From contig NZ_CP011280.1 in the NCBI RefSeq assembly GCF_000973085.1, positions 1-64,000 of the forward strand: a stretch of DNA of 64,000 bases, written 5' to 3'. The notes beneath the pieces were generated by a model that was not told where the DNA came from, did not search any database, and was given only the letters and a program-made list of their open reading frames with translations. Shown one piece after another: positions 2,650 through 60,350 of the stretch. This stretch comes from Sneathia vaginalis (GTDB lineage: Bacteria > Fusobacteriota > Fusobacteriia > Fusobacteriales > Leptotrichiaceae). Within the stretch, counting starts at the first letter, position 1, and every line of letters begins with the position of its first letter. The position numbers and the translations under genes were made by a program.

Positions 2650-3448
2650 GTCATTAGTGGATATTGTTAGAGAAAATAGTAGTGATATTTGGAGTTTTTT
2701 AGTACCTAAAGAATTTTTAAGCGAAACTTGTTTGGTTATAGATAAAGAGACTGCAATAATATATACTAAAGATCAAATATATGCAAATGAATTAAGTTTT
2801 TTTAAAGATGAATATCTAGATGCAATACAAAAAAAAGCAAAAGAAGTTAAGAGTATAAAGATAATAGTAAATCCTAAAAGATTTAAAGAAGAAAAGGTTG
2901 TAATAAGAAAAAGTGAAAAGAAATTTGAAAGTGTATTAAATGAGAAGAAAAAAGAAGCAGAAAAAATTTTTTCTAATATACAAGACATTGATGAAAAGAA
3001 ATATCTAGTTTCTTGTTTAGCATTAAAGTTAGTAAAAGAATATTACAGTAAGGAAAATAAGGAAAAAAAATGCGAAAATTGTGGAGATTACTTTAAAGGA
3101 CCTGATAAAATCTGTATAATTTGTAGAAATATAAAGAGAAAAAAAGATGTTCAGGATATAATTAAATATATGCTAGATGATCCATATTTAAGAAAAGAAT
3201 ATTTTTTGAAAATATTATCATATGACGAATTAACTTACGATCTAGCAAGAGATGAGGTGTTAAGATTACTTTATTTAAAACTACAAGATAAGTATAGAAG
3301 TGGAAAGGATTATGAAAAAGAGTTAAAAGATTACCTTGTTATGGATATAAAGTCACCTTATGATTTGGTATTAAACTTAGAAGGTAAAAAGATTATAAAA
3401 CGATTGGAAACACTTTTTGGTGGAGAAAGAAATGAAAAAAATACTTAA
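2639..3448 (+). CDS. DciA-like (DUF721) protein with zinc ribbon
   Basis: A 269-residue protein following recF, the position where many bacteria carry a DUF721/DciA gene. Residues about 1-90 fit the DUF721 pattern (a CLVIDKETAIIYTKDQIYANEL strand-helix unit, followed by an IKIIVNP strand). DciA proteins interact with the replicative helicase DnaB in bacteria lacking DnaC. Unusually, a middle segment has four cysteines at about 145, 148, 159 and 162 (CENC...CIIC), a probable zinc ribbon, followed by a helical C-terminal part. The N-terminal assignment is a pattern judgement without alignment; the zinc ribbon is directly visible. gyrB, often next in this order, is absent here and mfd follows. 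Confidence 0.6.
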   Translation: MKFKSLVDIVRENSSDIWSFLVPKEFLSETCLVIDKETAIIYTKDQIYANELSFFKDEYLDAIQKKAKEVKSIKIIVNPKRFKEEKVVIRKSEKKFESVLNEKKKEAEKIFSNIQDIDEKKYLVSCLALKLVKEYYSKENKEKKCENCGDYFKGPDKICIICRNIKRKKDVQDIIKYMLDDPYLRKEYFLKILSYDELTYDLARDEVLRLLYLKLQDKYRSGKDYEKELKDYLVMDIKSPYDLVLNLEGKKIIKRLETLFGGERNEKNT

Positions 3449-6110
3449 AGAAGAGATAGAAGATATTTTTAAAAATATAGAAAATACTTGTATCTACATT
3501 AGTACATCATTGAAAAATATGGAATATTACGAATACATATTAGGGAAAAAAGGATATAATGTAACTTTTTTTAAGACTAATGTAGGAAGTAAAAAAGAAT
3601 TAATAGATATTAATGTAAGATTAATTAATCTCTTAAATAAAAAAAAGAAGAATATAATATTTATAGACTTTTCATTAGCGATGTCTATATTTTTTGATAA
3701 ATACGATAGTTTTACTTTGGAAGTAGGTAAAGACTATAACCTAAATAAAATAGAAGAAAAATTACAAGAATATGCATATGAAAAAAACTATTTAATTACT
3801 GAAATGGGTCAATATTCAAGAAGAGGAGATTTAATAGATGTATATTCAGCAACTATGGACAACCCTATTAGACTAGATTTTTTTGATGTAGAGTTAGAGA
3901 AGATTAAAATATTTGATATAGATACACAAAGATCTTATGAAAATTTAAAAGAAATACAGATTTATTCTAATATTTTAAGAGGAGATAAGGTATTAATAAC
4001 AGAATTAACTGGTAAAACTACTAGTTTTTTCATAGAAAATCTAGAACTTGTAGAACATAGTCTTGAGACTATGTTACTTTTAGATAACAACGATAAAGAA
4101 AAAATACTTGCTAGATATGAGGTATTGAAAGAAAAGTCAGAAATAATAGAGGTAGCCTTAAGCGAAAATAGAAACTATCAATCAGAAATAGAAATAAAAA
4201 GAAAAAAAGAGTTAAAGAAAAAAATGAAATACAGCTCTATAACAGAATTAAATAAAGGAGATTATGTAATTCATGTTGAGTACGGTATAGGTAAGTATAT
4301 GGGGCTTAAAATGATGTATGACAAGGAATACCTATTAATACAGTATGCTGATGATGGAGAGCTTTATGTACCTGTTGAAAAGCTATATCGTATAGAAAAG
4401 TATATAAATATATCAAATAAGGAACCAGAACTATATAAATTAGGTACTAAGGGATTTAAGAAAAAGCACAAGAAGTATAAAGAAGAAATTGAAAAAGTAG
4501 CAAAGGAACTTATTAGAATTCAAGCTAAGAGAAAAAAAGACAATGGTATTTGTTTTATGGAAGACACAGTATTTCAAAAACAATTTGAAGAAAAATTTGA
4601 ATATTTAGAAACAGAAGATCAAAAAAAAGCAATAGAAGATGTAAAAAAAGATATGCAAAGCTATAAAATAATGGATAGAATAATATGCGGAGATGTTGGA
4701 TATGGTAAGACTGAAGTAGCTATGAGAGCAGCTTTTAAGGCTATAGAAAGCGGTTATCAGGTTGCTTTACTAGCACCAACTACAATATTAGCTAATCAGC
4801 ATTATGAACGGTTTAAAAAGCGATTTGAGGGTTTTCCGATAAATATAGCATCATACTCAAGACTTTCAACTAGAAAGGGAGTATTAGATGATTTAATTAG
4901 TGGTAAGATAGATCTTTTAATAGGTACACATAAAATTTTAGGTGATAATGTCATTTTCAATAATCTTGGACTATTAATAATAGATGAAGAACAAAAGTTT
5001 GGTGTTAAACATAAGGAAAAAATAAAGGAAAAAAAGACGAATATTGATGTTTTAACTCTGACTGCAACACCTATTCCTAGAACACTAAATTTGGCCTTGT
5101 TAGGTATTAGAGATATATCAGTAATATCAACACCACCTCTACAAAAATTACCAATAAAAACAGAAATATTAAATTTTAATGATGAAGAAAAATTAAAAAA
5201 AGTAATATTAGAAGAAATTAAAAGAGATGGTCAAGTCTTCTATATCTCAAATGATGTAAAAGGTATGGAAGATAAGGTTAAATATTTAAAAACTCTCCTT
5301 CCAAGCTTTATAGGCATAGAATATATACACGGTCAACTTAGTGCAAAAGAGATAAAAGGGAAAATAGATGCCTTTGAAAAGGGAGAATTTCAAGTTTTAG
5401 TTGCATCAACAATAATAGAAAATGGGATAGATATAGCAAATGCTAATACGATAATTATAGAAGGCTTTAATAACCTAGGTTTATCACAAATTTATCAATT
5501 AAGAGGACGTGTTGGTAGATCAAAAAGGCAAGCATATTGCTATCTATTAAAATCATTAAAACAAACACAAAAAGGTTTAAAAAAACAAGAAAGTATAAGT
5601 GAAATTGAAAATATTTCATCAGGTGGTTATGTAATTGCCATGGAGGATATGAATATACGGGGAGCTGGTGAAATTCTTGGAAATAAGCAACATGGTGCTA
5701 TAGAATCTTTCGGTTATGATTTGTACATTAAATTACTAAATGAAGAAATTAAAAGACAAAAAGGTGAAATTACATTTAATAATTTTGAAGTCAAGATGGA
5801 TTTAAAAGATAAGGGATATATACCAAATGACTACATAAAGGAAGCTGAAAGAATAAAGATATATAAGCGTATAGTTGAATTAACAAAAATCAGCGAAGTT
5901 GACGATATTAAAGATGAAATAGAAGATAGATTTGGTAAAATTCCTAAAGTTGTTAATACATTTTTAGATAGTGTTAAAATAAAGATATATTGTCAAAAAC
6001 ATAAAATAAGTAAAGTTGAAGAAAAAGATGATTTCCTTTATTTCTATTTTACAAATAATGTGTTAAAATTAAGTAAGAAAGAAGTTTTGGAAGGTGAAAA
6101 AGATGAATAA
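3432..6110 (+). CDS. mfd: Transcription-repair coupling factor Mfd (short form)
   Basis: Superfamily 2 DNA translocase that pushes stalled RNA polymerase off lesions and recruits UvrA. The RNA-polymerase-interacting CarD-like domain is at about residue 272-330 (GDYVIHVEYGIGKY). Helicase motif I GDVGYGKTE is near 420, DEEQ near 518, then the TATPIPRT and REG/GRVGRS motifs, and a C-terminal Mfd domain around YIPNDYIKEAERIKIYKR. At 892 residues it is about 250 shorter than E. coli Mfd; the loss is in the N-terminal UvrB-like region. ATG 3432 is preferred over an upstream TTG because GGTGGAG lies just before it. It overlaps the genes on both sides. Confidence 0.95.
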   Translation: MKKILKEEIEDIFKNIENTCIYISTSLKNMEYYEYILGKKGYNVTFFKTNVGSKKELIDINVRLINLLNKKKKNIIFIDFSLAMSIFFDKYDSFTLEVGKDYNLNKIEEKLQEYAYEKNYLITEMGQYSRRGDLIDVYSATMDNPIRLDFFDVELEKIKIFDIDTQRSYENLKEIQIYSNILRGDKVLITELTGKTTSFFIENLELVEHSLETMLLLDNNDKEKILARYEVLKEKSEIIEVALSENRNYQSEIEIKRKKELKKKMKYSSITELNKGDYVIHVEYGIGKYMGLKMMYDKEYLLIQYADDGELYVPVEKLYRIEKYINISNKEPELYKLGTKGFKKKHKKYKEEIEKVAKELIRIQAKRKKDNGICFMEDTVFQKQFEEKFEYLETEDQKKAIEDVKKDMQSYKIMDRIICGDVGYGKTEVAMRAAFKAIESGYQVALLAPTTILANQHYERFKKRFEGFPINIASYSRLSTRKGVLDDLISGKIDLLIGTHKILGDNVIFNNLGLLIIDEEQKFGVKHKEKIKEKKTNIDVLTLTATPIPRTLNLALLGIRDISVISTPPLQKLPIKTEILNFNDEEKLKKVILEEIKRDGQVFYISNDVKGMEDKVKYLKTLLPSFIGIEYIHGQLSAKEIKGKIDAFEKGEFQVLVASTIIENGIDIANANTIIIEGFNNLGLSQIYQLRGRVGRSKRQAYCYLLKSLKQTQKGLKKQESISEIENISSGGYVIAMEDMNIRGAGEILGNKQHGAIESFGYDLYIKLLNEEIKRQKGEITFNNFEVKMDLKDKGYIPNDYIKEAERIKIYKRIVELTKISEVDDIKDEIEDRFGKIPKVVNTFLDSVKIKIYCQKHKISKVEEKDDFLYFYFTNNVLKLSKKEVLEGEKDE

Positions 6111-6666
6111 AAAGTTAGTATTATTAGTATTAATATTGTCTATAACATCATGTACAGGATTTAAAGGGGTAATTTCTCCCAACGATCCTTATAAAAACGT
6201 AGTATTAAGAAAAAAATTGGAACATACAGAAAAGGTAGAAAAACCACGTAATAATGATATAAGTAAAATGATAGTAGTAAAAAAAGAAGAACCAAAACCA
6301 AAACCAAGGGTAGAAAGTTTGGATAAAATAATATCAGTAAAAAAAGAAGAACCAAAACCTAAACCAAAGGTAGAAAGTTTGGATAATATAATATCAGTGA
6401 AAAAAGAAGAACCTATAAAGCCAGTAGTATTAACAAGGGACATAAAAGAAATTTTAAGAGCCATAAAAAAAGACTATAACCTAGTAGAATCTAATGATGA
6501 TATAGAAAGAAAGACTGTTGAAGGTTTAACAAGATTAAGAAAAGAAACTAATAAGAATATAACACCAGCAGAATTGTTAAAGGAAATACATAAAGTAATA
6601 AAAGAAACAAATACAAAATCATATACTATGGCGATATCAAGAGTTCTAAATAATTGGAGTAAGTAA
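6103..6666 (+). CDS. Lipoprotein with 20-residue tandem repeats
   Basis: A 187-residue predicted lipoprotein of unknown function. It has a hydrophobic signal (MNKKLVLLVLILSITSC) with lipobox ITSC, so Cys17 would be lipidated. Residues about 58-105 hold a lysine/proline/glutamate-rich repeat of exactly 20 residues (KKEEPKPKPxVESLDxIISV) in two full copies plus a start of a third; the repeat is also a 60-bp DNA repeat. The C-terminal third looks helical. ATG 6103 is chosen over GTG 6094 because GGAAGGTG precedes it. It overlaps the mfd stop by eight bases and ends where rqcP begins. The low-complexity repeat suggests a periplasm-spanning linker, which is only inference. Confidence 0.85.
   Translation: MNKKLVLLVLILSITSCTGFKGVISPNDPYKNVVLRKKLEHTEKVEKPRNNDISKMIVVKKEEPKPKPRVESLDKIISVKKEEPKPKPKVESLDNIISVKKEEPIKPVVLTRDIKEILRAIKKDYNLVESNDDIERKTVEGLTRLRKETNKNITPAELLKEIHKVIKETNTKSYTMAISRVLNNWSK
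6279..6414 (+). repeat. 60-bp tandem repeat inside lipoprotein gene
   Basis: Two consecutive 60-bp units (6279-6338 and 6339-6398) differ at only a few positions, and the next 16 bases begin a third. The period keeps the reading frame and encodes the KKEEPKPKP...ESLD...ISV repeat, so copy number could change without breaking the protein. Confidence 0.9.
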
Positions 6667-6911
6667 TGAGATTAGATAAATTTTTAAAAATAACAAGAAT
6701 AATTAAGAGAAGAACTATAGCACAACAATTATGTGATAGTGATAATGTACTAGTTAATGGTAAGGCACAAAAACCATCATATAGTATTAAAAAAGGTGAC
6801 GAATTAGTTGTAAAATACTTTAATAATACTATAAAAGCAAAAGTATTAGAAATACCCAAAGAGTCACTAAAAAAAGAAGACATAGGAGATTATGTAAGTT
6901 TTGAAAATTAA
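6666..6911 (+). CDS. rqcP: S4-domain ribosome quality-control protein RqcP (YabO-like)
   Basis: An 81-residue S4-domain protein opening with MRLDKFLKITRIIKRRTIA, nearly the same as B. subtilis YabO/RqcP, which stabilises peptidyl-tRNA on obstructed 50S subunits during RqcH C-terminal tailing. Family knowledge also places yabO downstream of mfd in Bacilli, matching the order here. The start codon overlaps the last base of the lipoprotein stop. It is the last gene of the leading operon, followed at once by a terminator hairpin. Confidence 0.88.
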   Translation: MRLDKFLKITRIIKRRTIAQQLCDSDNVLVNGKAQKPSYSIKKGDELVVKYFNNTIKAKVLEIPKESLKKEDIGDYVSFEN

Positions 6912-6916
6912 GCTTA

Positions 6917-6946
6917 AAAAGGTCTCAATATGAGATCTTTTTTTGA
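6917..6946 (+). terminator. Rho-independent terminator after rqcP
   Basis: Hairpin AAGGTCTCA - ATA - TGAGATCTT (one G-T pair) followed by a T tract, a few bases after the rqcP stop. It closes the dnaA-rqcP operon. Confidence 0.85.
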
Positions 6947-7052
6947 TAGGTTGGTAGAAAGGATACAAGATGTATAAGTATAAGACAATAGACCTATACA
7001 CCATATAAAACAAGGTAAAACATATATATAAATAAAAAATAAAAAAAAGTAG

Positions 7053-7081
7053 TTGACAAAGAAATTGGATTAGTGTATAAT
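7053..7081 (+). promoter_or_regulatory. Consensus promoter of the tRNA operon
   Basis: TTGACA (7053-7058) and TATAAT (7076-7081) with a 17-bp spacer, a perfect sigma-70-type promoter, starting 24 bases before the first tRNA. Confidence 0.95.
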
Positions 7082-7104
7082 CAATCTTGTTCTGATAGAG
7101 AAGT

Positions 7105-7192
7105 GCCTTGGTGGCGAAATCGGTAGACGCACAGGACTTAAAATCCTGTGGAAATTTATTCCGTGCCGGTTCGAGTCCGGCCCGAGGCACCA
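7105..7192 (+). tRNA. tRNA-Leu (TAA)
   Basis: Cloverleaf with acceptor GCCTTGG/CCGAGGC, anticodon loop CTTAAAA (anticodon TAA), long variable arm GGAAATTTATTCC, T-arm GCCGGTTCGAGTCCGGC and encoded CCA. First gene of the cluster. Confidence 0.97.
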
Positions 7193-7201
7193 ATGACGTA
7201 T

Positions 7202-7278
<77 letters not shown>

Positions 7279-7285
7279 AAAATAT

Positions 7286-7361
7286 GCGGGAATAGCTCAG
7301 ATGGTAGAGCGTCAGCCTTCCAAGCTGAATGTCGCGAGTTCGACCCTCGTTTCCCGCTCCA
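7286..7361 (+). tRNA. tRNA-Gly (TCC)
   Basis: Acceptor GCGGGAA/TTCCCGC, anticodon loop CTTCCAA (TCC), standard D and T arms, encoded CCA. Confidence 0.96.
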
Positions 7362-7369
7362 TTAAGTAT

Positions 7370-7445
7370 GAGCCATTAGCTCAGTCGGTAGAGCACATGA
7401 CTTTTAATCATGGTGTCACTGGTTCGATTCCAGTATGGCTCACCA
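7370..7445 (+). tRNA. tRNA-Lys (TTT)
   Basis: Acceptor GAGCCAT/ATGGCTC, anticodon loop CTTTTAA (TTT), encoded CCA. Closely similar to the next gene. Confidence 0.96.
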
Positions 7446-7483
7446 TTCATTCATACTAATGTAAACTATAATGATATAATAAT

Positions 7484-7559
7484 GGGCTATTAGCTCAGCT
7501 GGTAGAGCACATGACTCTTAATCATGGTGTCACTGGTTCGACCCCAGTATAGCCCACCA
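7484..7559 (+). tRNA. tRNA-Lys (CTT)
   Basis: Acceptor GGGCTAT/ATAGCCC, anticodon loop CTCTTAA (CTT), encoded CCA. The arms are almost identical to the preceding tRNA-Lys(TTT), suggesting origin by tandem duplication. Confidence 0.96.
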
Positions 7560-7572
7560 GTAATAATTATAT

Positions 7573-7649
7573 GTACCTGTAGCTCAGTTGGATAGAGCAA
7601 CAGCCTTCTAAGCTGTGGGCCAGGGGTTCAAATCCCTTCAGGTACGCCA
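7573..7649 (+). tRNA. tRNA-Arg (TCT)
   Basis: Acceptor GTACCTG/CAGGTAC, anticodon loop CTTCTAA (TCT), discriminator G, encoded CCA. Confidence 0.96.
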
Positions 7650-7658
7650 TATCCTTTT

Positions 7659-7735
7659 GGATCCGTAGCTCAGATGGTTAGAGCACGCGGCTCATAACCG
7701 TGAGGTCACTGGTTCGATCCCAGTCGGATCCACCA
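7659..7735 (+). tRNA. tRNA-Met elongator (CAT)
   Basis: Acceptor GGATCCG/CGGATCC, anticodon loop CTCATAA (CAT), encoded CCA. A normal G1-C72 pair excludes an initiator. The GTAGCTCAG and GAGCAC arms look more like elongator Met than the lysidine-modified tRNA-Ile2, but Ile2 cannot be excluded by eye. Confidence 0.85.
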
Positions 7736-7744
7736 TTAGTGAAT

Positions 7745-7819
7745 GGACCCTTCGTCTAGTGGTTAGGACATCGGGTTTTCATCCCGGCAACAGGAGTTCG
7801 ATTCTCCTAGGGTCTACCA
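7745..7819 (+). tRNA. tRNA-Glu (TTC)
   Basis: Acceptor GGACCCT/AGGGTCT with a G1-T72 wobble, anticodon loop TTTTCAT (TTC), encoded CCA. Confidence 0.95.
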
Positions 7820-7849
7820 TTATAGCTACCATTAGGTGCTTTTTTTTAT

Positions 7850-7939
7850 GGGCAGATGTCCGAACTGGCTAAGGAACCGGTCTTGAAAACCGGCGAAGAT
7901 GTAACAGTCGTCTGGGTTCGAATCCCAGTCTGCCCGCCA
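7850..7939 (+). tRNA. tRNA-Ser (TGA)
   Basis: A 90-nt class II tRNA: acceptor GGGCAGA/TCTGCCC, anticodon loop CTTGAAA (TGA), long variable arm, encoded GCCA end. Confidence 0.96.
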
Positions 7940-7947
7940 TTATATAT

Positions 7948-8023
7948 GCCCAGATAGCTCAGTCGGTAGAGCAAGGGACTGAAAATCCCTGTGTCCGTGG
8001 TTCGATTCCGCGTTTGGGCACCA
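7948..8023 (+). tRNA. tRNA-Phe (GAA)
   Basis: Acceptor GCCCAGA/TTTGGGC with a G-T pair, anticodon loop CTGAAAA (GAA), encoded CCA. Last gene of the ten-tRNA cluster. Confidence 0.96.
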
Positions 8024-8028
8024 TTGTT

Positions 8029-8052
8029 ATCTCCTAAAGGAGATTTTTTTTT
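8029..8052 (+). terminator. Terminator of the tRNA operon
   Basis: Hairpin ATCTCC-TAAA-GGAGAT followed by nine Ts, directly after tRNA-Phe. Confidence 0.9.
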
Positions 8053-8059
8053 ACTTTAT

Positions 8060-8091
8060 AAAAAAAGAGTATGTAAGCATAGCTTACATAC
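8060..8091 (-). terminator. Terminator of the yhf-like operon
   Basis: A perfect 10-bp stem GTATGTAAGC - ATA - GCTTACATAC (8069-8091) followed, on the minus strand, by a T run (As at 8060-8066). It lies just downstream of the yhfW stop and back to back with the tRNA terminator. Confidence 0.9.
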
Positions 8092-8097
8092 ATCTTC

Positions 8098-9321
8098 TTA
8101 TTTCAATAAGTCAAGATAACTTTTACCTTGTTCAACATTTTCATGTATATTAAAGTATTCTAGAACAGTATTTGCAGAATCAGACATAGTTTCTCTTAAT
8201 CCTAAATCTATATTTTTCTTTTGATTGAATAATCTCTTATTATATACCAATAATGGTACATTTTCTCTTGTATGTTGTGAATGACCTATTGTAGGATCAT
8301 TTCCATGATCTGCTGTTATAACTAAAATATCATCGTCATTTAATTTTTCTATAATCTTTCCAATATATTTATCAGCAATGCTCAAAACATTTGCATATCT
8401 TTTTGTATTTTGAGAATGTCCAGATAAATCAGTTTCTTGAACATTAATGCACATAAATCCTTTGTGGAAATCATCTAATTTCTTAAGGGTTAATTCGAAG
8501 ATAGTTTTAGTATCAACTAAATTCATAAAGCTTTCTCCGTTCTTATTGTACACTATATCTGCTACTTTACCTATTAACATAACATCTATATTATTTTTAG
8601 TTAATATTGTGGGTACTTGATTATTTGGATCTACACCATATCCCATATGTCTAACCATATATCCTTCTTCATAAACTTTAGATAATGGTGCATCTATTCC
8701 CATATATTTTCCTTCTTTTTCTCTAGCAGCATCTAAGATACTTTGGGTTGTGGCTTTTGTTCCACCAAAGACAATAACTCTTTCAACTTTTACAATATCC
8801 CTAACAACTTGTGCTATTTTCAATTCATCTTCAAATGATATATTTTTAAATGTTGTTGTAACATTGTATACTTGTCCTAAATCTGTTTCCAAATTATCAC
8901 CTATTGCAACGCAATCATTAACCCATAAGAAATTAACATTTACACCTTTTCTTTCAACTTTATACCCTTTTTTTAAAAGTTTTTTTTCAACAGTATCGAT
9001 ATAGAATGAAAAAGGCTTGTTCAAAGGTTTTTCAGTTTTAGTTCCCATCAATTCTTGGTGTCCTAAGAAAGTATCACCTCCGTGATGTTGTAATTTTGAC
9101 TTACCAGCAATTTTGACATTAACTTTTTTCATAAAAGGTGTTTCAAAATCTAAAATATTCATTAATCCTAATTTTTCAAGATTTTCCCATTTAGAATCTG
9201 GAAGTTTTTCTAATATGTGTCTTGCAGTATTTGATCCAAAATCTCTTGGTCTAACCTTCAAGACATCATCCATATATCCAACTCCAAATCCATCTAATAC
9301 TATTATTAAAAATCTAGACAT
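8098..9321 (-). CDS. yhfW: YhfW-like phosphopentomutase-family metalloenzyme
   Basis: A 407-residue alkaline-phosphatase-superfamily enzyme related to phosphopentomutase. It starts MSRFLIIVLDGFG, where the Asp is a metal ligand, and has an ETDLSGHSQNT segment and ITADHGNDPTIGHSQHTRE near residue 335, giving the expected Asp/His metal sites. E. coli YhfW is the matching member of a cluster of the same genes, so this is more likely YhfW than housekeeping DeoB; the substrate is unknown. ATG 9321 is chosen because AAGGAG lies nine bases upstream; a longer frame starts at 9354. It overlaps the end of yhfX by eight bases and is the last gene of the operon. Confidence 0.82.
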   Translation of the reverse strand: MSRFLIIVLDGFGVGYMDDVLKVRPRDFGSNTARHILEKLPDSKWENLEKLGLMNILDFETPFMKKVNVKIAGKSKLQHHGGDTFLGHQELMGTKTEKPLNKPFSFYIDTVEKKLLKKGYKVERKGVNVNFLWVNDCVAIGDNLETDLGQVYNVTTTFKNISFEDELKIAQVVRDIVKVERVIVFGGTKATTQSILDAAREKEGKYMGIDAPLSKVYEEGYMVRHMGYGVDPNNQVPTILTKNNIDVMLIGKVADIVYNKNGESFMNLVDTKTIFELTLKKLDDFHKGFMCINVQETDLSGHSQNTKRYANVLSIADKYIGKIIEKLNDDDILVITADHGNDPTIGHSQHTRENVPLLVYNKRLFNQKKNIDLGLRETMSDSANTVLEYFNIHENVEQGKSYLDLLK

Positions 9322-10462
9322 TTTTCTTATCTCCTTGTGTGTTATATATACCAACTATATGTATATTATTACTATGTATACCCTCAATTAAAACAATATC
9401 TGATCTTGTAACAAACATTTGTGTTCTAAAGCAAAGTATTATAGGATCAAATATATTATATTTTCCTTCTAATGATAGGTAATAATCAATATTTGTTGCA
9501 TTAAAATTATTAACGTTTACTATTTCATTATCAATATATCCATGTTTCATATGTCCTCTAGGGTAGTATCCACCACCATAAAAGTATGAATTATTTTTAA
9601 AAACATGAGAAATTTCTGAAATGTATAAATAGGCTGGAATTTCAATTCCACTGTCTATATTTAAAGGTGTTGTTCCAGTTAAAGCGTGTCCTGGTTCAGC
9701 ATCTGTTCCCCCATAAGAATAAATTTTCTTTATATTTTCAACTGTAGATACAGATGGTAAATTTATATGTTTAACATACAAATTTTGATTCTTTAAGAAT
9801 TCATTTACTTCTAGTACTGAAAAAAGATTATTTGTTTCTTTTATACATTTTTCATCAGGGGAGTACAAAAAACAAGGGAATGAAGTTATTCCATTTAGCT
9901 TAACACCTTTTAAATCTTTTAATTTTGGTATAAGTTCTTTAACTTCATTTACAGAAAATCCTGCTTCTTGTCCAGGATAAATTTCAGAATTTTCATCTAA
10001 TATTCTTAACATAATATCTTGTGTCTTATTTAAAGATAAAGCAATATTAGAAATTTCTTTTATCATGTCATAAGAATAGACTGTTATTATCTCTACACCG
10101 TATTCTATTACACGTGATAGCATATTCTTTGGTATTTGAACGAGATGTCCTATATTACAAAGTTTAAGGTTATTTTTCATCATAACTTCAACTTCTTTAA
10201 AATCTACGCAGACTGCCCCTTTATACCCTAAATCTTCTAGTTTTTTTGCTAAATAAGGATTTCTACCTACTTGTTTTAACATATAGAAGAGATTAATATT
10301 GTATTTTTTTGCTTCATTTAAAATGTTTTTGGCATTTTCTAAAAAAATATCAACATCTATACAATAAGAATCTGGAAGAATTAGTCCTTTTTTGTATAAG
10401 TCTAGAGAGGCATCTACAAAAGCTTTATTTGTATCTAAAAGTCTTTTTAAAAACAATATCAT
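9314..10462 (-). CDS. yhfX: YhfX-like fold-III PLP enzyme (alanine-racemase-like)
   Basis: A 382-residue PLP-barrel protein. The N-terminal segment NLFYMLKQVGRNPYLAKKL carries the likely Schiff-base lysine (Lys63) at the end of the first barrel strand, and the C-terminal half holds a beta domain with FYGGGYYPRGHMKHG. The family includes E. coli YhfX; the reaction is not established, and racemase or amino-acid lyase chemistry is inference from the fold. It starts within the yhfS stop (ATGA overlap at 10459-10462), so it is translationally coupled. Confidence 0.82.
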   Translation of the reverse strand: MILFLKRLLDTNKAFVDASLDLYKKGLILPDSYCIDVDIFLENAKNILNEAKKYNINLFYMLKQVGRNPYLAKKLEDLGYKGAVCVDFKEVEVMMKNNLKLCNIGHLVQIPKNMLSRVIEYGVEIITVYSYDMIKEISNIALSLNKTQDIMLRILDENSEIYPGQEAGFSVNEVKELIPKLKDLKGVKLNGITSFPCFLYSPDEKCIKETNNLFSVLEVNEFLKNQNLYVKHINLPSVSTVENIKKIYSYGGTDAEPGHALTGTTPLNIDSGIEIPAYLYISEISHVFKNNSYFYGGGYYPRGHMKHGYIDNEIVNVNNFNATNIDYYLSLEGKYNIFDPIILCFRTQMFVTRSDIVLIEGIHSNNIHIVGIYNTQGDKKNV

Positions 10463-11562
10463 TCACCTCTTTCCATAAAATATGCTTTTTCTAAAATTCT
10501 TGCTATATTTTCAGCTCCAGCTCTATTAGGATTTATTCTAATCATTCTTTCTGCTAGACTAGGATCAGTATCTATGAAAGTACCAGATACCCTATAAATC
10601 AAAGGGTTCATTTCAAATTTAGATTCTGCACCAACTGGGTGAGAAAGGGCACCTAATTTTACAGTTTGTTTTAAAATATTTTTAGCTATGTGTTCGCAAA
10701 ATTCAACTAAAACAACTTTAGATTGAGAATTTGCGATATATACATCTTTTATATATGGAAATCTTTTTTTATCTTTTAGAATATTATATAAACCTTCTAT
10801 TTGTTTTGCTTGAATACTTAAAGCAACTGGTGCATAAACTAAACCTCTTAGTACTTCCATAGCTTCAAATCCTTGAACTTGTGAACCACCAGAATAATTA
10901 TGTTTTCTCATGTTTTCTATAATTTCTCTTTTTCCAATTATCAATCCAATACCAACAGGTCCTAATAGTTTAAAACAAGAAAAAGCAGAGATATCAGCTC
11001 CCATTTCTACTCCATTTTCTGGTGTTTTAAGTACGGCATAGTTATCGTCAACAACAATTTTAATGTTATTATCGATTTCTTTTATTTTCTTTATTACTTC
11101 TTTTAAAACATATTTATCATCTAATTTTTGACGTGTATGTTGTAATAGTACAACTTTAATATTATTTTCAACTATATATTCTCTTAAAGTAGAAAGATCA
11201 TTAAAGTTGTACTTTTTAATATTTACTTTCATTGAGTTTAAACTAAATTCACTAGTCTTGTATATTGGACCATCGTGAACAAGTATAGTATTTTCATTTT
11301 TTAAAAATTCAAAGAAAGTTAGTCGTAAGGCATTTGTTCCAGATCCCCTAACTAAAAATGCATCTTCAGCATTAAAGAAGTTTGCTAGAATTTTTTCTAT
11401 TGTTCTTGTTCTAATAGGCATATTATTTGTTTTTTCCACACCTAAGTCGCCCAAATCTAATATTTCTTTACCATTAATATATTTTCCTATTAAATCTACT
11501 AATCTAAATTGTTTTTCCATAGCTTCTTCTAAAGTTATAGATTGTAAGGGATATGTTTTCAT
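10459..11562 (-). CDS. yhfS: YhfS-like fold-I PLP enzyme
   Basis: A 367-residue aminotransferase/cysteine-desulfurase-type PLP enzyme. The cofactor-binding Asp is in IVVDDNYAV (Asp172/173) and the Schiff-base lysine is in SAFSCFKLLGPVG (Lys198); AFLVRGSGTNALR (about 68-80) resembles the phosphate-binding loop. It matches E. coli YhfS in neighbourhood. ATG 11562 is chosen over an upstream ATG-rich extension at 11595 because GAGGT (11567-11571) precedes it. Substrate unknown; the co-occurrence of two PLP enzymes suggests an amino-acid-derived compound. Confidence 0.83.
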   Translation of the reverse strand: MKTYPLQSITLEEAMEKQFRLVDLIGKYINGKEILDLGDLGVEKTNNMPIRTRTIEKILANFFNAEDAFLVRGSGTNALRLTFFEFLKNENTILVHDGPIYKTSEFSLNSMKVNIKKYNFNDLSTLREYIVENNIKVVLLQHTRQKLDDKYVLKEVIKKIKEIDNNIKIVVDDNYAVLKTPENGVEMGADISAFSCFKLLGPVGIGLIIGKREIIENMRKHNYSGGSQVQGFEAMEVLRGLVYAPVALSIQAKQIEGLYNILKDKKRFPYIKDVYIANSQSKVVLVEFCEHIAKNILKQTVKLGALSHPVGAESKFEMNPLIYRVSGTFIDTDPSLAERMIRINPNRAGAENIARILEKAYFMERGE

Positions 11563-11569
11563 TTTTACC

Positions 11570-12793
11570 TCATTTCTTATATAATACATCGCCAACTAAA
11601 TTCATTATTTCTCTTGCATATTTCCAAGTTGATTTATAGCTTCCGTCAGAATCAACTCCATAATTTTGTTTATTTGTTAAAATAATTACTTGTATTTTAT
11701 TATCTAAATCATATACAACTTGTGTACCTGTAAATCCTGTGTGACCTACAAATTTATTAGTTGCATATTTTCCCATATATCCTTTGTCTACACCACCTCT
11801 ATTTATTTCATAACCATAACCATGTCCAAATTTACTTTCAATTTTTGTAAACTCATCTACTACATTTTTATTATATAGTCTTACTGATTTATATTTTCCA
11901 TTGTTTAATAAGACTTCACCTAAAACATATAGATCATGAGCAGTTGAAAATAATCCAGCATGTCCTGCTACACCATTATTTGCGTAATATGAATTTCCAT
12001 CATTTACCAAACCAGTTAATGTATGTCTTCTCCAGTATCTGAAAGAATTATATTCTTCATTTATCTTATACCCAAAATTATCATCATAAATCATTTTTTG
12101 TTCAAAAGGATTACCATGTGATGTTGAAGCAATTTGATTTTGACTAAACACTTCAAGAGGCAAAAATCTTGTTCTCTTTAAATGTAGAGGCTTATATATT
12201 TCTTCTAATACATAATCATTAAGCTTTTTATGTGTAACCTTTTCAACAATGAATGCTAAAGTCATGAATGAAAAATCACTGTATTTTCTATTACTTCCTG
12301 TTTTGTATTCTAATGGTAGATTACAAATATATTTTAATTCTTCATCACTATTTTTAACATGATAGTATGTAGGTAACCATGGAGTTAAACCAGATGTGTG
12401 AGTTAATAAGTCTTTAATTTTAACATCTTCTTTACCATTTTTAGCAAATTCAGGTATATACTTACTAACTTTGTCATTTACATTTATTTTACCTTCAGAA
12501 ACTAATTTCATAATTACTTGTGTTGTAGCAAATATTTTAGTAAGTGAAGCTAAATCGAATATAGTATCTGTTTTCATTGGTCTTAACTTTTCTTTATCAT
12601 CTTCTAAAACTTGTGCATAACCAAAAGCTTTGTTATAAAGAATATGACCATTTTTGGAAACCAAAACAACAGCACCAGGCATTGTCTTATTACTTATATA
12701 TTTTTCGGTTATAGTTTGTATATCGTTTAAGCTTTTTGTAAAAGTAAAGACACTAAATAATATACTACAAAAAATTAATATTATCTTTTTCAT
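11570..12793 (-). CDS. Secreted serine hydrolase, class C beta-lactamase family
   Basis: A 407-residue protein with an N-terminal signal peptide (MKKIILIFCSILFSVFTF). The active-site SxxK is SLTK (Ser83, Lys86), the second motif reads YSD (171-173) in place of the usual YxN, and a C-terminal HTGFTG stands at the KTG/HxG position. The family (PF00144) covers esterases, D-aminopeptidases, peptidoglycan peptidases and lactamases, so the substrate cannot be named. It sits inside the yhf-like operon between php and yhfS and is not a member of the E. coli yhf cluster, so it may release the substrate outside the cytoplasm. SD AAGGAA is upstream. Confidence 0.85.
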   Translation of the reverse strand: MKKIILIFCSILFSVFTFTKSLNDIQTITEKYISNKTMPGAVVLVSKNGHILYNKAFGYAQVLEDDKEKLRPMKTDTIFDLASLTKIFATTQVIMKLVSEGKINVNDKVSKYIPEFAKNGKEDVKIKDLLTHTSGLTPWLPTYYHVKNSDEELKYICNLPLEYKTGSNRKYSDFSFMTLAFIVEKVTHKKLNDYVLEEIYKPLHLKRTRFLPLEVFSQNQIASTSHGNPFEQKMIYDDNFGYKINEEYNSFRYWRRHTLTGLVNDGNSYYANNGVAGHAGLFSTAHDLYVLGEVLLNNGKYKSVRLYNKNVVDEFTKIESKFGHGYGYEINRGGVDKGYMGKYATNKFVGHTGFTGTQVVYDLDNKIQVIILTNKQNYGVDSDGSYKSTWKYAREIMNLVGDVLYKK

Positions 12794-12803
12794 TTTTATT
12801 CCT

Positions 12804-13679
12804 TTATTTGTTGAAGAAATTCATAGGGTTTTTACATAACATTAAATCAAGAGATTCATCTGTTATACCTTTTTCTTTTAGCATAGGTATAAATGAATCA
12901 AATATATATGAATAACCTATTCCACCCATAAATTCCATATTAGATTTTCTTGAAATATCTTGTGATAAGAACACTTTATTAAGTAAATTCATATCTTGTA
13001 ATATTTTTAACATTTCAACTCTTTTAGAGTCTAATAAATAGTTATTTTTCCCTATTGTATCAAATGAAATATATACACCTTTAGATAAAATTTCTATAAT
13101 ATATTGTACATCTCCACTTAAATCAACGTGCCCTATATTTACCTTTGACAAATCAACATTATTTTTTTCAAAAAATTCAATTTGTCCTAAAGCATTTGTA
13201 CCTAATGTAGTATGTGTGCTAATAGGCACACCAGTCTTTTTATGTGCAATTACAATACTTTCAAATATTTTTTCTTCTTCTTTTGTCATATGATCTTTAC
13301 TTGTACCAATTTCACCCAATAATTGTGCTTTTATACCTGTACCATCGATACCTATTTCTATATCATTTATCAAAAGTTCAGCAATTTCTTCTTTATCCAT
13401 TTCATAGACATAGTCAGGTAAGAAAGGTTCTTTATAGAATCCTGTAGAACAAATGAAGTTTATTCCACTTTCTTTTGATATTTTAACAATATTTTTTACA
13501 TTTCTACCCATACCTCTATTGGTAACTTCTACAATATTTCTAACACCTTTAGAGTATAGTTTTTTCATTTCTTTTGTAATTTCATCTATGCAGTCTACCT
13601 TGCAATCTAAATTATGTTTTTGACCAGATAAATCTATTGTCATATGTTCGTGCATAAGTGTATAACCATTTTGTAACAT
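12804..13679 (-). CDS. php: Phosphotriesterase-homology protein (Php/YhfV)
   Basis: A 291-residue amidohydrolase-superfamily TIM barrel of the PTE/Php family. All binuclear metal ligands can be placed: HxH at His10/His12, Glu123 in GEIGT (the bridging position, Glu as in Php rather than carbamylated Lys), His156 in STHTT, His184 in IGHVD and Asp241 in SQDIS. It probably hydrolyses a small lactone, amide or phosphoester; the substrate is unknown. SD GGAGAT precedes the start. It lies 10 bases after yhfT in the operon. Confidence 0.9.
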   Translation of the reverse strand: MLQNGYTLMHEHMTIDLSGQKHNLDCKVDCIDEITKEMKKLYSKGVRNIVEVTNRGMGRNVKNIVKISKESGINFICSTGFYKEPFLPDYVYEMDKEEIAELLINDIEIGIDGTGIKAQLLGEIGTSKDHMTKEEEKIFESIVIAHKKTGVPISTHTTLGTNALGQIEFFEKNNVDLSKVNIGHVDLSGDVQYIIEILSKGVYISFDTIGKNNYLLDSKRVEMLKILQDMNLLNKVFLSQDISRKSNMEFMGGIGYSYIFDSFIPMLKEKGITDESLDLMLCKNPMNFFNK

Positions 13680-13689
13680 TTTAAATCTC

Positions 13690-14994
13690 CTATTTAGCTA
13701 CTACTGGGACAAATAATTTAAGTAAAAATAATATGTTTAGTATTATTCCAAATCCTATTGTTGCAATTGGACCTACTGCCATATCAACTAATGGTTTCTT
13801 AGCAGCTCTGTTTAATAAGTAAACACCTATAACAAATAGGAATCCTAAACCATTTTTACCAGCCATATCATTACATGCAATCATAGCACCAACTAGGATT
13901 GCAACTTCTAAAACCTTTGTCATACTAGTTCTTATTTGATCACCACAAGCTTTAACACCAGGGAATTTATCTAATAATTTTGCAATTTGTTCTAGTAGTA
14001 AAATTTCTATTGCTAAAACGATAGCACCTAAAACAAAGGCGATTATTGGATTTCTAACAAATATACCTATAACAAATACGAATGTTAAACCAGCAGGACC
14101 ATATACCCCTGTAGTTATAGCTGTTGTAGCAACTAAAGGTATAAATCCTATAGTTCTTGCTAGTGCAACTATTCCTGCATCAGATAATTTCCCTTCTTGC
14201 ATCAAGTTTAATGAAATAGGGTCACCAGCTAACATATTTAAACTAACAGCAGCAGCAACTAATCCACCCATAATAGATAGTATTAATATATTTTTCTTTA
14301 CTCTAGCAACTCTTTCAGAGAAAATACCTATTAATTGTTCATTTGAATTTGTTACTTCAGTCTTATCCATTACTGCGAATATTAACATAATAACTATACC
14401 TGCAAATAGTGCTATACCATCAGCATTTAATGCAATTTTAGCTTCACCAAATGTAAATTTACCAAATAGTGAAATTAATTGTCTAATAATTAAAACGATA
14501 ATTAAAGAGAAAGCACCTTTTTTAACACCATATTGGTAACCAACTACTAATACAGGGAAGATTGCAAATGCAACGATTATAGGGCTACCTATGCTAGTTA
14601 AATTAGGTAAGAAATTAACAGGTAATTTTGCGAATACGTCAACAATAACCTTTAATCCTAATACTAATCCAATACCATATAAGGCACCTATTATTCCTGA
14701 TATAGCCATACCTTTTTTATTGTCTGGGCACATTGTTCCTATTATATCAGTTCCAAGCAATATACTATGTATTAATATAACGCTTTTACCGATAGAAAAT
14801 GGGATACCAAAACCAATAACTAGTCCGAAGCTTAATGCAAAGCTGGTTGCAAGTAATGATTTTCTATCCATTCTTTTTTCCAAGTATTCTGGTATTAATG
14901 GTCTTAAACCATCATTAAATACAGCAATACTTTGGTTAGCTAAAATTGAAGCTAGTCCAGCTAATAAAGCCATTACAATAATTCTTGATATCAT
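13690..14994 (-). CDS. yhfT: YhfT-like membrane transporter
   Basis: A 434-residue polytopic membrane protein with roughly 11-12 hydrophobic segments (for example IIVMALLAGLASILA at the start and GFGIILNILFLLKLFVPVV at the end). It corresponds by position and general character to E. coli YhfT, a predicted inner-membrane transporter of unknown substrate. The start overlaps the yhfU stop by four bases and is preceded by GGAGGT. It presumably imports the compound processed by the downstream enzymes. Confidence 0.8.
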   Translation of the reverse strand: MISRIIVMALLAGLASILANQSIAVFNDGLRPLIPEYLEKRMDRKSLLATSFALSFGLVIGFGIPFSIGKSVILIHSILLGTDIIGTMCPDNKKGMAISGIIGALYGIGLVLGLKVIVDVFAKLPVNFLPNLTSIGSPIIVAFAIFPVLVVGYQYGVKKGAFSLIIVLIIRQLISLFGKFTFGEAKIALNADGIALFAGIVIMLIFAVMDKTEVTNSNEQLIGIFSERVARVKKNILILSIMGGLVAAAVSLNMLAGDPISLNLMQEGKLSDAGIVALARTIGFIPLVATTAITTGVYGPAGLTFVFVIGIFVRNPIIAFVLGAIVLAIEILLLEQIAKLLDKFPGVKACGDQIRTSMTKVLEVAILVGAMIACNDMAGKNGLGFLFVIGVYLLNRAAKKPLVDMAVGPIATIGFGIILNILFLLKLFVPVVAK

Positions 14995-15350
14995 AATTTA
15001 CCTCCAATAAATTTTTTTATCATTTTTATAGATTTTTCTGTAGCATTTGGAGTAAAACCAAATGCAATTTTTCCATCTTCAATACCTTTTTTTACTTCTT
15101 CTTCAGTTAAAACTTTTCCAGGACTTGCAACAGTCAAGCATTTATTTGCACCAACGATAGCTATAGCCATTGCCAGAGCACCTCCACCACCTGTATTACA
15201 AGCACCAAAATAATAATCATAATTTCCTGATTTTAATCCCATAGCAGCATCTATATCTGACTTTACATCAACACTAGCATCAGGAAATTCAGCATTTAAA
15301 ATTTTTTTGACATTTTCTTTGTCAATTTGTCCACCTACAACAATTTTCAT
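14991..15350 (-). CDS. yhfU: YhfU-like small protein (DUF2620)
   Basis: A 119-residue soluble protein with a glycine/alanine-rich centre (YYFGACNTGGGGALAMAIAIVG) resembling a nucleotide- or phosphate-binding loop. It corresponds to E. coli YhfU. Function unknown. Its invariable pairing with the YhfT transporter, with four-base overlaps on both sides here, suggests the two products work together, possibly like a PTS-like or solute-binding accessory; that is inference. Confidence 0.78.
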   Translation of the reverse strand: MKIVVGGQIDKENVKKILNAEFPDASVDVKSDIDAAMGLKSGNYDYYFGACNTGGGGALAMAIAIVGANKCLTVASPGKVLTEEEVKKGIEDGKIAFGFTPNATEKSIKMIKKFIGGKL

Positions 15351-15712
15351 ACCCTATCCACTCCTTCTAAAAAATTAATTAAGTGTGCTAAAATAAATGT
15401 TTTTTCGCTATCATTAATTGGACCTAGAACGTCCTTTTCTAAATTTTGTATAATCTGCAATGCTAAAGTATATTTTTTAGATTCTTTTAATTCATTTAAA
15501 CTATCTATATCTAAACCTTCAATACTTTCCTTGTCTTTTCTTTCTAAGTACATAGCAATATGCGTTACTAACATAGAAGAATTTTCCTCTGTAAGATTTA
15601 AGTCGTATTTTTCTTTTAAATAATTTAGCATATTAAGTACAGTTTTCATGTTTTCTTCATGTAAAACGCCTGATTTTAAAAGTAAATTTAATCTGTTAAT
15701 TAATTCATTCAT
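15347..15712 (-). CDS. yhfY: YhfY-like PRD domain protein
   Basis: A 121-residue protein made of one PTS-regulation domain: helical, with the MLVTHIAMYLER histidine near residue 50 and FILAHLINFLEG near 110, the two conserved-His segments of a PRD. No DNA- or RNA-binding domain is attached, so it may act as a phosphorylation-responsive partner of YhfZ. It matches E. coli YhfY. SD AGGAG precedes the start, and the repeated 21-bp element lies in its leader. Confidence 0.8.
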   Translation of the reverse strand: MNELINRLNLLLKSGVLHEENMKTVLNMLNYLKEKYDLNLTEENSSMLVTHIAMYLERKDKESIEGLDIDSLNELKESKKYTLALQIIQNLEKDVLGPINDSEKTFILAHLINFLEGVDRV

Positions 15713-15725
15713 AGTATCTCCTAAA

Positions 15726-15747
15726 TTTTCATTTTTTTGAATATTTA
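15726..15747 (-). promoter_or_regulatory. Repeated dyad element upstream of yhfY
   Basis: A 21-bp sequence (15727-15747) is identical to one upstream of yhfZ (16679-16699). On the minus strand it contains the dyad TTCA-N6-TGAA. Its location between yhfZ and yhfY suggests a second operator or internal control point. Confidence 0.55.
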
Positions 15748-15761
15748 ACTTAAAAAAATTA

Positions 15762-16670
15762 TTAGTACCGAGGTACTATAATTTTTTCTAAAACATCTTT
15801 TTGTATTTTTCCAATATATTTAATATCTAATATATTTTTTACTAAGCTTTCCATCAACTTATCGGATTTATTTATCACTATAACTGCTTCATTTGCAAGA
15901 TTTATATATTCCTTATCAAAGATATCTTGAACTTCTATACCATTAATCAGTTTTTCTTCTATTTCATCTAAACTCAATATTGCTTGGTCTATAAGAGAGT
16001 TTTGCATATCCTTAACAATGTTATCAGAGTTAACATCAATAACATCATAATCTTTACCGCTGAAGTATTGGTTTGATAAAAAATATTGGTCTTCAGAGTT
16101 TTTATCTATACCCACTCTTATCTTCTTGCTTTTTGTAGGAACTTTAAGTAATACGTGCTTTGATACGTAACTTTCAGGACCTAAACTAAAAACCTTTTTA
16201 ATATTTTTTTTATCAGAATTTTTAAATGCCAAATTAGACATTAAAGCAAAATCATAAATTCCACTTTCAAGTAGTTTTAGTCTTACCCTAGATCCTTGCA
16301 TATATGCAAAGTAGAAGGTTATACCATGTTTTTCAAATGAATTCTTTATAGCCATAGCTAAGCCTTCATAACGTTTTGAATAAGGTAGAGGCATAACACC
16401 TACTATTGAATTAATAAATGCTTTTTTTATTAATTTGTCGTCATATTTAGCTTCTAAAATTTTTCCAAATACACCTTTTTTTGATAAAGATATACATTTT
16501 TCACTTTCTAAAATTTCAAAAGCTTTTTGTACACTACCTACAGACATTTGTAATTCTTCTGAATATTCTTTTACAGATTTTAACCTATCCCCTATTTTAA
16601 GCCCCATTATATCTCTAGCTACTGTTATTATAGCTATATCAACCTTATTTAAAGTTCTAATTTTTTCCAT
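15762..16670 (-). CDS. yhfZ: YhfZ-like transcriptional regulator
   Basis: A 302-residue regulator. The N-terminal 70 residues form a GntR/YhfZ-type winged helix (IGDRLKSVKEYSEELQMSVGSVQKAFEILESE), and the rest resembles a periplasmic-binding-type ligand domain (GVMPLPYSKRYEGLA, then QGSRVRLKLLESGIYDFALMSN). It corresponds to E. coli YhfZ and is the first gene of the operon, so it is the natural candidate to bind the repeated dyad and control the cluster in response to the transported compound. No good SD is visible. Confidence 0.82.
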   Translation of the reverse strand: MEKIRTLNKVDIAIITVARDIMGLKIGDRLKSVKEYSEELQMSVGSVQKAFEILESEKCISLSKKGVFGKILEAKYDDKLIKKAFINSIVGVMPLPYSKRYEGLAMAIKNSFEKHGITFYFAYMQGSRVRLKLLESGIYDFALMSNLAFKNSDKKNIKKVFSLGPESYVSKHVLLKVPTKSKKIRVGIDKNSEDQYFLSNQYFSGKDYDVIDVNSDNIVKDMQNSLIDQAILSLDEIEEKLINGIEVQDIFDKEYINLANEAVIVINKSDKLMESLVKNILDIKYIGKIQKDVLEKIIVPRY

Positions 16671-16678
16671 AAGCCAAC

Positions 16679-16735
16679 TTTCATTTTTTTGAATATTTAT
16701 ATAATATATATTACCTTGAATAAATTAAAAGTCAA
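16679..16735 (-). promoter_or_regulatory. Promoter and operator of the yhf-like operon
   Basis: On the minus strand TTGACT (16730-16735) is a good -35. The AT-only region at 16703-16713 offers several -10 choices (for example TAATAT at 16708-16713). The copy of the 21-bp dyad element (16679-16699) lies just downstream of the -10, a position where a bound repressor would block initiation or clearance. Confidence 0.6.
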
Positions 16736-36315: not shown

Positions 36316-36316
36316 G

Positions 36317-37210: not shown

Positions 37211-37218
37211 TTTTCACC

Positions 37219-46969: not shown

Positions 46970-47064
46970 GAAAATTTCCTTCTTTCCGTTACAAGTATAT
47001 ATTATTAATATTATTTTATATGTAAAATTATAAAATATAAACATAGAAATTAATAGTTTTCAAG

Positions 47065-47145
47065 ATTATTTTTTAACCATTTAAGACATATTCTGAATTT
47101 ATATAGAATATTGGTAAAAAATACACCTTACAATTTTTTAACCAT
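47065..47145 (-). promoter_or_regulatory. Two GGTTAAAAAAT boxes upstream of surface gene A
   Basis: On the minus strand ATGGTTAAAAAATAAT (47065-47080) and ATGGTTAAAAAATTG (47131-47145). The nearer one lies about 100 bases before the start codon, the same distance as in the other family members. Confidence 0.55.
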
Positions 47146-47225
47146 ATTTTTTAAATTTATAGATTTTTAATATTATTTGTTTTTCATTGTCATATTTTTT
47201 TTAAATGTATTATACGAATTCAAAT

Positions 47226-47249
47226 AAAAAAGGGCTTTTGCCCTTTTTA
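47226..47249 (-). terminator. Terminator of surface gene 47250-49538
   Basis: AAAAAAGGGC - TTTT - GCCCTTTTT, directly after the stop. Confidence 0.85.
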
Positions 47250-51560: not shown

Positions 51561-51572
51561 ATTTTTCCCCCA

Positions 51573-52841: not shown

Positions 52842-52854
52842 AAAAATATTCCTC

Positions 52855-53570: not shown

Positions 53571-53582
53571 ACTGCTACCTTT

Positions 53583-57878: not shown

Positions 57879-57921
57879 AATTGTTTTCTCCTTTTTTTAC
57901 ATATCTATAGTAGTCAAGTAT

Positions 57922-57927
57922 ATTATA
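57922..57927 (-). promoter_or_regulatory. -10 of surface gene C
   Basis: TATAAT on the minus strand, preceded by TTTTTTGGC and followed by ATACTTGACTACTATAG, the arrangement seen before the plus-strand family members. Confidence 0.7.
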
Positions 57928-58653: not shown

Positions 58654-58689
58654 TAAATATATTAAATTTTTGATAAGAGGAGAGATATT

Positions 58690-60294: not shown

Positions 60295-60309
60295 TTGAAT
60301 AAATTTTTT

Positions 60310-60346: not shown

Positions 60347-60350
60347 ACAC

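Follow-up and report, generated by a model that had tools for sequence, protein, structure and literature searches.

The yhf operon of Escherichia coli K-12 contains eight genes in the order yhfZYXW-php-yhfUTS, and at least 80% of this stretch is kept in 5032 of 5426 complete E. coli genomes. Structures have been solved for E. coli Php (1bf6 and 4lef), for a relative of YhfZ (2ozz) and for homologues of YhfS (4j8l) and YhfX (4kbx), the last three being functionally unassigned. Genes for YhfX and DUF2620 proteins have also been listed in a clade of L. rhamnosus (PMC7513527). No functional paper on the yhf operon was found in the literature searched, in keeping with an initial sequence-only reading that considered its physiological role to be unresolved. 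Here we describe a yhf operon of Sneathia vaginalis that is carried in the first 64,000 bp of contig NZ_CP011280.1 (this whole stretch is referred to as the window), in a genome made up of one contig of 1,330,224 bases with approximately 28% G+C. This operon is a variant, new here, of the known yhf operon kind. The recurrent pairing of the yhf pathway, or of YhfX, with unrelated amide hydrolases is the strongest new clue to its function.

Organization and spread of the yhf operon

Nine tightly packed, co-directional reading frames occupy bp 8098-16670 of the minus strand of the window in the order Z-Y-U-T-Php-hydrolase-S-X-W (Table 1). Each of the nine proteins was assigned to a family by Pfam and NCBIfam profiles, and eight of them have one-to-one counterparts in E. 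coli K-12 (32-49% identity where measured), bearing out the sequence-only reading of a complete, eight-gene yhf set. As in K-12, the regulator gene stands first in a single operon. The window operon differs from that of K-12 in its gene order, in its genomic neighbours, in the subfamily of its YhfT protein (35% identity to that of E. coli) and in the addition of an exported serine hydrolase. Gene order was not taken as defining a yhf operon because it is not conserved within the kind.

Table 1. Coordinates of the yhf genes and flanking signals in the S. vaginalis window
Feature	Position (bp)	Strand	Basis
Promoter-like site, 5' of yhfZ	16708-16735	-	TTGACT-N16-TAATAT; consensus scan, 9/12 matches
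YhfZ, GntR-like regulator with ligand-binding-type YhfZ_C domain	15762-16670	-	NF041241, 288.9 bits (cut-off 260)
YhfY, stand-alone PRD domain, 121 amino acids	15347-15712	-	PF00874, E-value: 1.9e-9
YhfU (DUF2620), soluble, predicted RpiB-like fold	14991-15350	-	PF10941; Cys51 in AC[NS][TS]GxG
YhfT, polytopic membrane protein, putative importer	13690-14994	-	PF10797, 564 bits; 13 hydrophobic segments
Php, phosphotriesterase-family binuclear metal hydrolase	12804-13679	-	PF02126, 294 bits; HEH, GEIG, STHT, GHVD
Exported class C-fold (family S12) serine hydrolase, PBP4B-like	11570-12793	-	PF00144; SLTK, YSD, HTG motifs
YhfS, fold-type I pyridoxal 5'-phosphate (PLP) enzyme	10459-11562	-	PF22475 (YhfS-like_C), PF00266, PF01053
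YhfX, fold-type III PLP enzyme (alanine racemase / D-hydroxyaspartate aldolase superfamily)	9314-10462	-	PF21279 (YhfX-like_C), PF01168, alignment
YhfW, phosphopentomutase-like metalloenzyme	8098-9321	-	NF009049, 570 bits (cut-off 254)
Intrinsic terminator, operon 3' end	8069-8091	-	10-bp stem, loop of 3, T-run

The predicted starts of yhfS and yhfW were corrected from 11595 to 11562 and from 9354 to 9321, respectively, in both cases to an ATG with a good ribosome-binding site. Following these corrections, the overlaps of four to eight bases described in the sequence-only reading hold for four junctions (4, 4, 4 and 8 bases) and not for the others, which are gaps of 7-10 bases and, between yhfZ and yhfY, of 49 bases. 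The promoter-like site is weak evidence because such matches are no more numerous in the region than in shuffled sequence. Six terminator-type sites were found in the region, as compared with 2.2 expected in shuffles. The nine genes lie between the promoter-like site and a strong terminator. The earlier description of one operon led by a YhfZ-type regulator is supported. Ten tRNA genes in a row (bp 7105-8023, plus strand) face the operon, and the hairpin at its 3' end is terminator-like for the tRNA array as well. Apart from tRNAs, no Rfam elements were found in or near the operon.

YhfT was found in 16 of the 98 Fusobacteriota genomes searched, each time within an essentially complete linked set. 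Fifteen fusobacterial loci were retrieved for comparison in addition to that of the window. The genes for U, T, Php, S, X and W are linked in all 15, and those for Z and Y are linked to them as well, with the exceptions of G052, which has no adjacent YhfZ, and G088, in which the PRD frame is recognizable by position and sequence only. Within Sneathia, YhfT is present in the genome of the window and absent from the sole other genome of the genus that was examined. Neighbourhood comparison across phyla thus recovered the linked set in 15 further Fusobacteriota genomes and in E. coli. A Vibrio halioticoli plasmid carries Z-Y-Php-U-T-X-W without S. In one small phylum, a first genome carries Z-Y-U-T-Php and a second one T-Php. 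Based on these minimal sets, the smallest recurring unit is T and Php, usually with Z, Y and U. Two genomes placed in one genus (loci L043 and L041) encode YhfT proteins of different subfamilies (window-like and E. coli-like); one of the two holds T-Php only and the other Z-Y-U-T-Php. YhfT was not found in the small phyla reached through CodY-positive genomes. A scan of a genome collection with one query sequence returned one relative, and Bacillota, including Lactobacillus-type yhf clusters, lay outside the comparison.

Putative amide hydrolases associated with yhf operons and YhfX

The gene that is additional to the yhf set encodes an exported serine hydrolase, which the sequence-only reading had described as a class C beta-lactamase-fold enzyme with a signal peptide. 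The family S12 motifs (SLTK, YSD and HTG) and an N-terminal hydrophobic export segment are indeed common to this protein and its four orthologues, and the fold and export parts of that description therefore stand. The enzyme is nearer to PBP4B, and it falls below the cut-offs of both families: it was rejected as a class C beta-lactamase (NF033085, 79 bits, cut-off 415) and as a member of PBP4B (NF002968, 254 bits, cut-off 385), although the latter is still its nearest curated family. Like PBP4B (YfeW), it is an exported protein with SxxK, Y-S-D and H-T-G motifs; unlike PBP4B, to which it has 36-38% identity (36% for the E. coli chromosomal matches), it is encoded inside a yhf operon. The hydrolase probably cuts amide or ester bonds.

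Full-length orthologues (64-69% identity) occur in just four other genomes, and all five genes occupy one slot, between php and yhfS of a yhf operon. Other matches in the 98 genomes have at most 39% identity and are located outside that slot. The presence of all five orthologues within the 16 yhf-bearing genomes has a hypergeometric P of 6e-5 when relatedness is ignored. The co-occurrence of serine hydrolase and yhf genes, proposed earlier as a check, is thus found in every orthologue, and divergence among the five hydrolases parallels that of YhfT, YhfS, YhfX, YhfW and Php.

In eight other fusobacterial yhf operons, a different protein of approximately 340-350 amino acids, probably of the amidase-signature type, is encoded directly after yhfT. 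The amidase-signature family has a Ser-cisSer-Lys layout, and this is matched by the (T/I)GSSSGTA, GTDGGGS and G[VI]K[NED] motifs found in 8/8 of these partners. The Amidase profile PF01425 recognizes the proteins weakly (over the cut-off in one of the three alternative partners tested), and the partner of Cetobacterium somerae is annotated as an "amidase family protein". No export signal was seen in any of the eight.

A third association involves YhfX homologues of Aminobacter, Nitratireductor, Ruegeria and Rhizobium (approximately 30% identity), which lie outside yhf in a conserved operon. This operon (loci L074, L075, L076, L077, L079 and L082, about positions 2200-9970) has the order ROK regulator, M20 hydrolase, one or two sugar-type binding proteins, permease, YhfX and ATPase. 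The M20 enzyme is of the ArgE/DapE, deacylase type, and the importer is a sugar-type ATP-binding cassette (ABC) system. What it has in common with yhf is a YhfX protein encoded beside an amide hydrolase and an importer; the other seven yhf genes (Z, Y, U, T, php, W and S) are absent, and the importer and regulator differ. A NagB-II-like SIS protein follows one of these operons. In Embleya (Actinomycetota; L080, 4892-11698), the surroundings of a YhfX homologue include a ROK regulator and a NagB-II-like SIS-domain protein that scores below the cut-off. With the S12 enzyme, the amidase-signature protein and the M20 enzyme, three non-homologous amide-hydrolase families therefore recur with the pathway or with YhfX. 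This agrees with the earlier hint, drawn from the additional hydrolase, of amide or ester chemistry, and the two further, unrelated amide hydrolases, found in operons that are equivalent or related, strengthen that hint.

Regulators, putative importer and core enzymes

The operon encodes two potential regulators. YhfZ matches PF14503 (YhfZ_C) and PF14502 (HTH_41). YhfY is a lone PRD in which no nucleic-acid-binding domain was found, which leaves unproven the proposal of the sequence-only reading that the operon is controlled by a PRD protein.

YhfU is predicted to resemble RpiB. An AlphaFold2 model of the 119-residue protein (predicted local distance difference test, pLDDT, 93.5) has RpiB proteins as all eight of its best Foldseek matches (template modelling scores 0.60-0.68, E-values 2e-3 to 1e-2). 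Cys51 is invariant (19/19 aligned), and its Cys-x-T/S-G-x-G loop aligns with the CGTGxG loop of RpiB/LacAB. When a YhfU profile was compared with PDB sequences, the three best matches were also RpiB-like chains, which were non-significant and aligned on CNTGGG/CGTGLG. The LacAB_rpiB profile (PF02502) is matched weakly by 2/19 YhfU proteins (best E-value: 0.065), and profile-profile alignment with fusobacterial RpiB was not significant. YhfU was rejected as an RpiB/LacAB isomerase, as the PF02502 matches are weak and the window YhfU contains no His, the residue used for ring opening and phosphate. Because of this absence and the failed profile-profile comparison, YhfU is called RpiB-like in fold rather than RpiB. 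PF14272 (SFCGS) is matched weakly by 5/19 YhfU proteins (best E-value: 9e-4), and the glycine-rich SFCGS proteins are a family distinct from YhfU. SFCGS proteins sit in DUF4310/4311/4312 operons, which, like yhf, combine a small Cys protein with membrane proteins.

The model of YhfT has a pLDDT of 81.7. We term YhfT an importer by inference, because this model matches no solved structure. A phosphotransferase system (PTS) permease (EIIC/EIIB) was rejected for YhfT/YhfU, with no Pfam or PDB match. The sequence-only reading of import by YhfT/YhfU fits YhfT in so far as it is a many-helix membrane protein, with no match to a solved transporter, and does not fit YhfU as a transporter subunit, this protein being soluble and RpiB-like in its predicted structure. 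YhfT proteins fall into two types: those of the window and Cetobacterium are 63% identical to each other, those of a Sebaldella-like genome, E. coli and Vibrio have 61-62% mutual identity (61% between the Sebaldella-like genome and E. coli), and identity between types is 35-40%. In contrast, YhfS, YhfX and YhfW of the Sebaldella-like genome are 54-60% identical to those of the window. Thus, U and T have been swapped together, as a module, while the enzyme core stayed the same, in support of a joint role of the two proteins as a single input unit. A bolder and rather doubtful extension is that YhfU and YhfT might form an unrecognized kind of importer, in which a soluble RpiB-fold protein with an invariant Cys cooperates with a membrane protein whose fold is unmatched; this importer would feed a pathway for amide-linked, amino-sugar-like compounds that recruits unrelated amide hydrolases in different lineages.

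Catalytic motifs are intact in the operon enzymes. The two PLP enzymes of different folds noted previously are recovered as YhfS (fold-type I) and YhfX (fold-type III). Php, previously read as a binuclear hydrolase, likewise has a high PF02126 score and keeps the metal motifs (HxH, the metal His and Glu as the bridging residue); its score against the equivalog NF007373 is 346 bits, below the cut-off of 486. For YhfW, the phosphomutase-like assignment stands at the level of the superfamily, and the protein is distinct from a true phosphopentomutase. It has the catalytic Thr (in DTFxGHQE) and most metal-site motifs (ADHGND, HTRE) in common with DeoB. However, ordinary DeoB was rejected for YhfW (TIGR01696, 143 bits, cut-off 341), and its motifs are changed: the solved phosphopentomutase has DTxTGHWE and NLVDFD-LFGHRRD, while DTFxGHQE and NxQETDLxGH mark the 18/18 YhfW proteins aligned, one of which has DTFYGHHE, with His instead of Gln after GH (Trp in the solved enzyme). 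The substrate pocket, and probably the substrate, therefore differ from those of phosphopentomutase, and YhfW likely carries out a related phosphate-shifting reaction on another substrate, as judged from its sequence motifs.

Proposed function and alternative explanations

We tentatively propose, at somewhat short of an even chance, that yhf is an inducible operon for the salvage or catabolism of an amino compound that is joined by an amide (or, less likely, an ester) bond and has a skeleton treated in the manner of a phosphorylated sugar. The catabolic direction, class of substrate, order of steps and mode of regulation given here are those that the gene families and their linkage suggest. 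In the lineage of the window, the exported serine hydrolase would trim the compound in the periplasm, a step for which other Fusobacteriota may use the cytoplasmic amidase-signature enzyme. The YhfT/YhfU pair would import the product, with YhfU as a soluble RpiB-like partner bearing an essential-looking cysteine. Php could then open a bond such as an ester or lactone and YhfW could shift a phosphate within the skeleton. The two PLP enzymes, first YhfX and then YhfS, would next act on the carbon that bears the amino group, by inversion or cleavage, and take off the amine, delivering carbon and nitrogen to central metabolism. YhfZ may sense a pathway ligand via its C-terminal domain, and the PRD protein YhfY may couple the system to sugar-PTS status. 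A link to an amino sugar or D-amino acid may be envisaged.

Several points weigh against this proposal. The amide step is not a general one, as there is no hydrolase in the operons of E. coli and Vibrio halioticoli or in three fusobacterial loci (one of Fusobacteriaceae and two of Leptotrichiaceae). Nor is there a universal need for the PLP and mutase steps, given the absence of YhfS from V. halioticoli and of S, X and W from the minimal sets. The YhfT model matched no solved transporter or other fold in the PDB, and the chemical roles suggested for YhfX, YhfS, YhfW and Php are taken from superfamilies with diverse reactions.

Cell-wall turnover would account for some of the same observations. 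The PBP4B-like hydrolase might cut a D-aminoacyl bond in the periplasm, YhfX, which is in the alanine-racemase superfamily, might racemize the freed D-amino acid and YhfS might deaminate it, so that the operon would recover D-amino acids or amino-sugar pieces from peptidoglycan. This would suit both the family nearest to the hydrolase and the genes for LD-carboxypeptidase (S66), M19 dipeptidase, NanE, a PTS permease and DUF386 near yhf in two Leptotrichiaceae loci. However, such neighbours are not conserved in the Sneathia, Streptobacillus-like, Cetobacterium and E. coli loci, there is no obvious job in D-amino acid recovery for Php, YhfW or the RpiB-like YhfU, and the amidase-signature enzyme that serves as the other partner is cytoplasmic; we regard this explanation as unlikely. 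Less likely still is that the hydrolase is a passenger, that is, an unrelated exported esterase or carboxypeptidase that is co-transcribed by chance and uninformative on the yhf substrate. Although most yhf operons lack the enzyme, including those of G086 and G087, whose congener G085 carries it, this subfamily is found nowhere else in the 98 genomes, always occupies the same slot and diverges in parallel with the operon genes, and amide hydrolases of unrelated families are found repeatedly in this setting.

The position of yhfS directly adjoining frlR in K-12 brings to mind the catabolism of glycated amines (Amadori-type compounds in which an amino acid is joined to a sugar), such as the fructoselysine of the neighbouring frl operon. 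YhfX might then handle amino acid stereochemistry and Php and YhfW the sugar-phosphate part, which would accord with the RpiB-like fold of YhfU, the phosphopentomutase-like YhfW and the NagB-II-like SIS proteins encoded adjacent to, or in the vicinity of, YhfX homologues of Rhizobium and Embleya. Those SIS proteins, however, are below the NagB-II cut-off and only approximately 22-24% identical to FrlB, no frl-type genes were recognized by eye beside yhf in fusobacterial loci, the operon has no deglycase and an Amadori bond is not an amide, all of which make this idea improbable. Finally, YhfU, Php, YhfW, YhfX and YhfS could build or repair an amino-sugar-like metabolite that YhfT exports, as the direction of transport is not fixed by the unmatched fold of YhfT, and mutases, isomerase-like proteins and PLP enzymes occur in biosynthesis too. 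The hydrolase-rich gene set, GntR-type regulator, PRD protein and patchy distribution of accessory genes look catabolic instead, as does the linkage of YhfX homologues to ABC importers, and we consider biosynthesis or repair very unlikely.

Upstream of yhf in some Leptotrichiaceae (L030, 12761-19129; L031, 1175-6539; L018, 126-2188) are genes for PTS EIIBC, DUF386, NanE, S66 and M19 proteins, which suggest a neighbouring amino-sugar and muropeptide region. The NanE, PTS, S66 and M19 genes were rejected as parts of the yhf system because they are limited to one group.

Elsewhere in the window, three tandem paralogous substrate-binding lipoproteins (297-306 amino acids) are encoded beside one ABC permease and ATPase (bp 35407-38139). 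The segments at bp 44798-49538 and 55656-64000 encode several large exported paralogues that are almost identical at their N-termini (MKKTLLLASLI..TGFVESNFKGD and similar) and are likely surface proteins; two of them (748 and 762 amino acids) are adjacent. Between these lies a region (bp 49825-55505) with a split transketolase in two halves, a UlaA-like permease, a PTS IIA-like protein and a large regulator, including a ula-type cluster at 51.5-55.5 kb. Ascorbate utilization has been reported for S. vaginalis (PMC13393775), and this region fits that report.

The yhf operon has representatives in several phyla and is retained by approximately 93% of complete E. coli genomes, with no function found in the literature searched. 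Its candidate substrates are narrowed down by the recurrent pairing with unrelated amide hydrolases, by the exchangeable U/T module and by the minimal sets, which together also name the first proteins to test.

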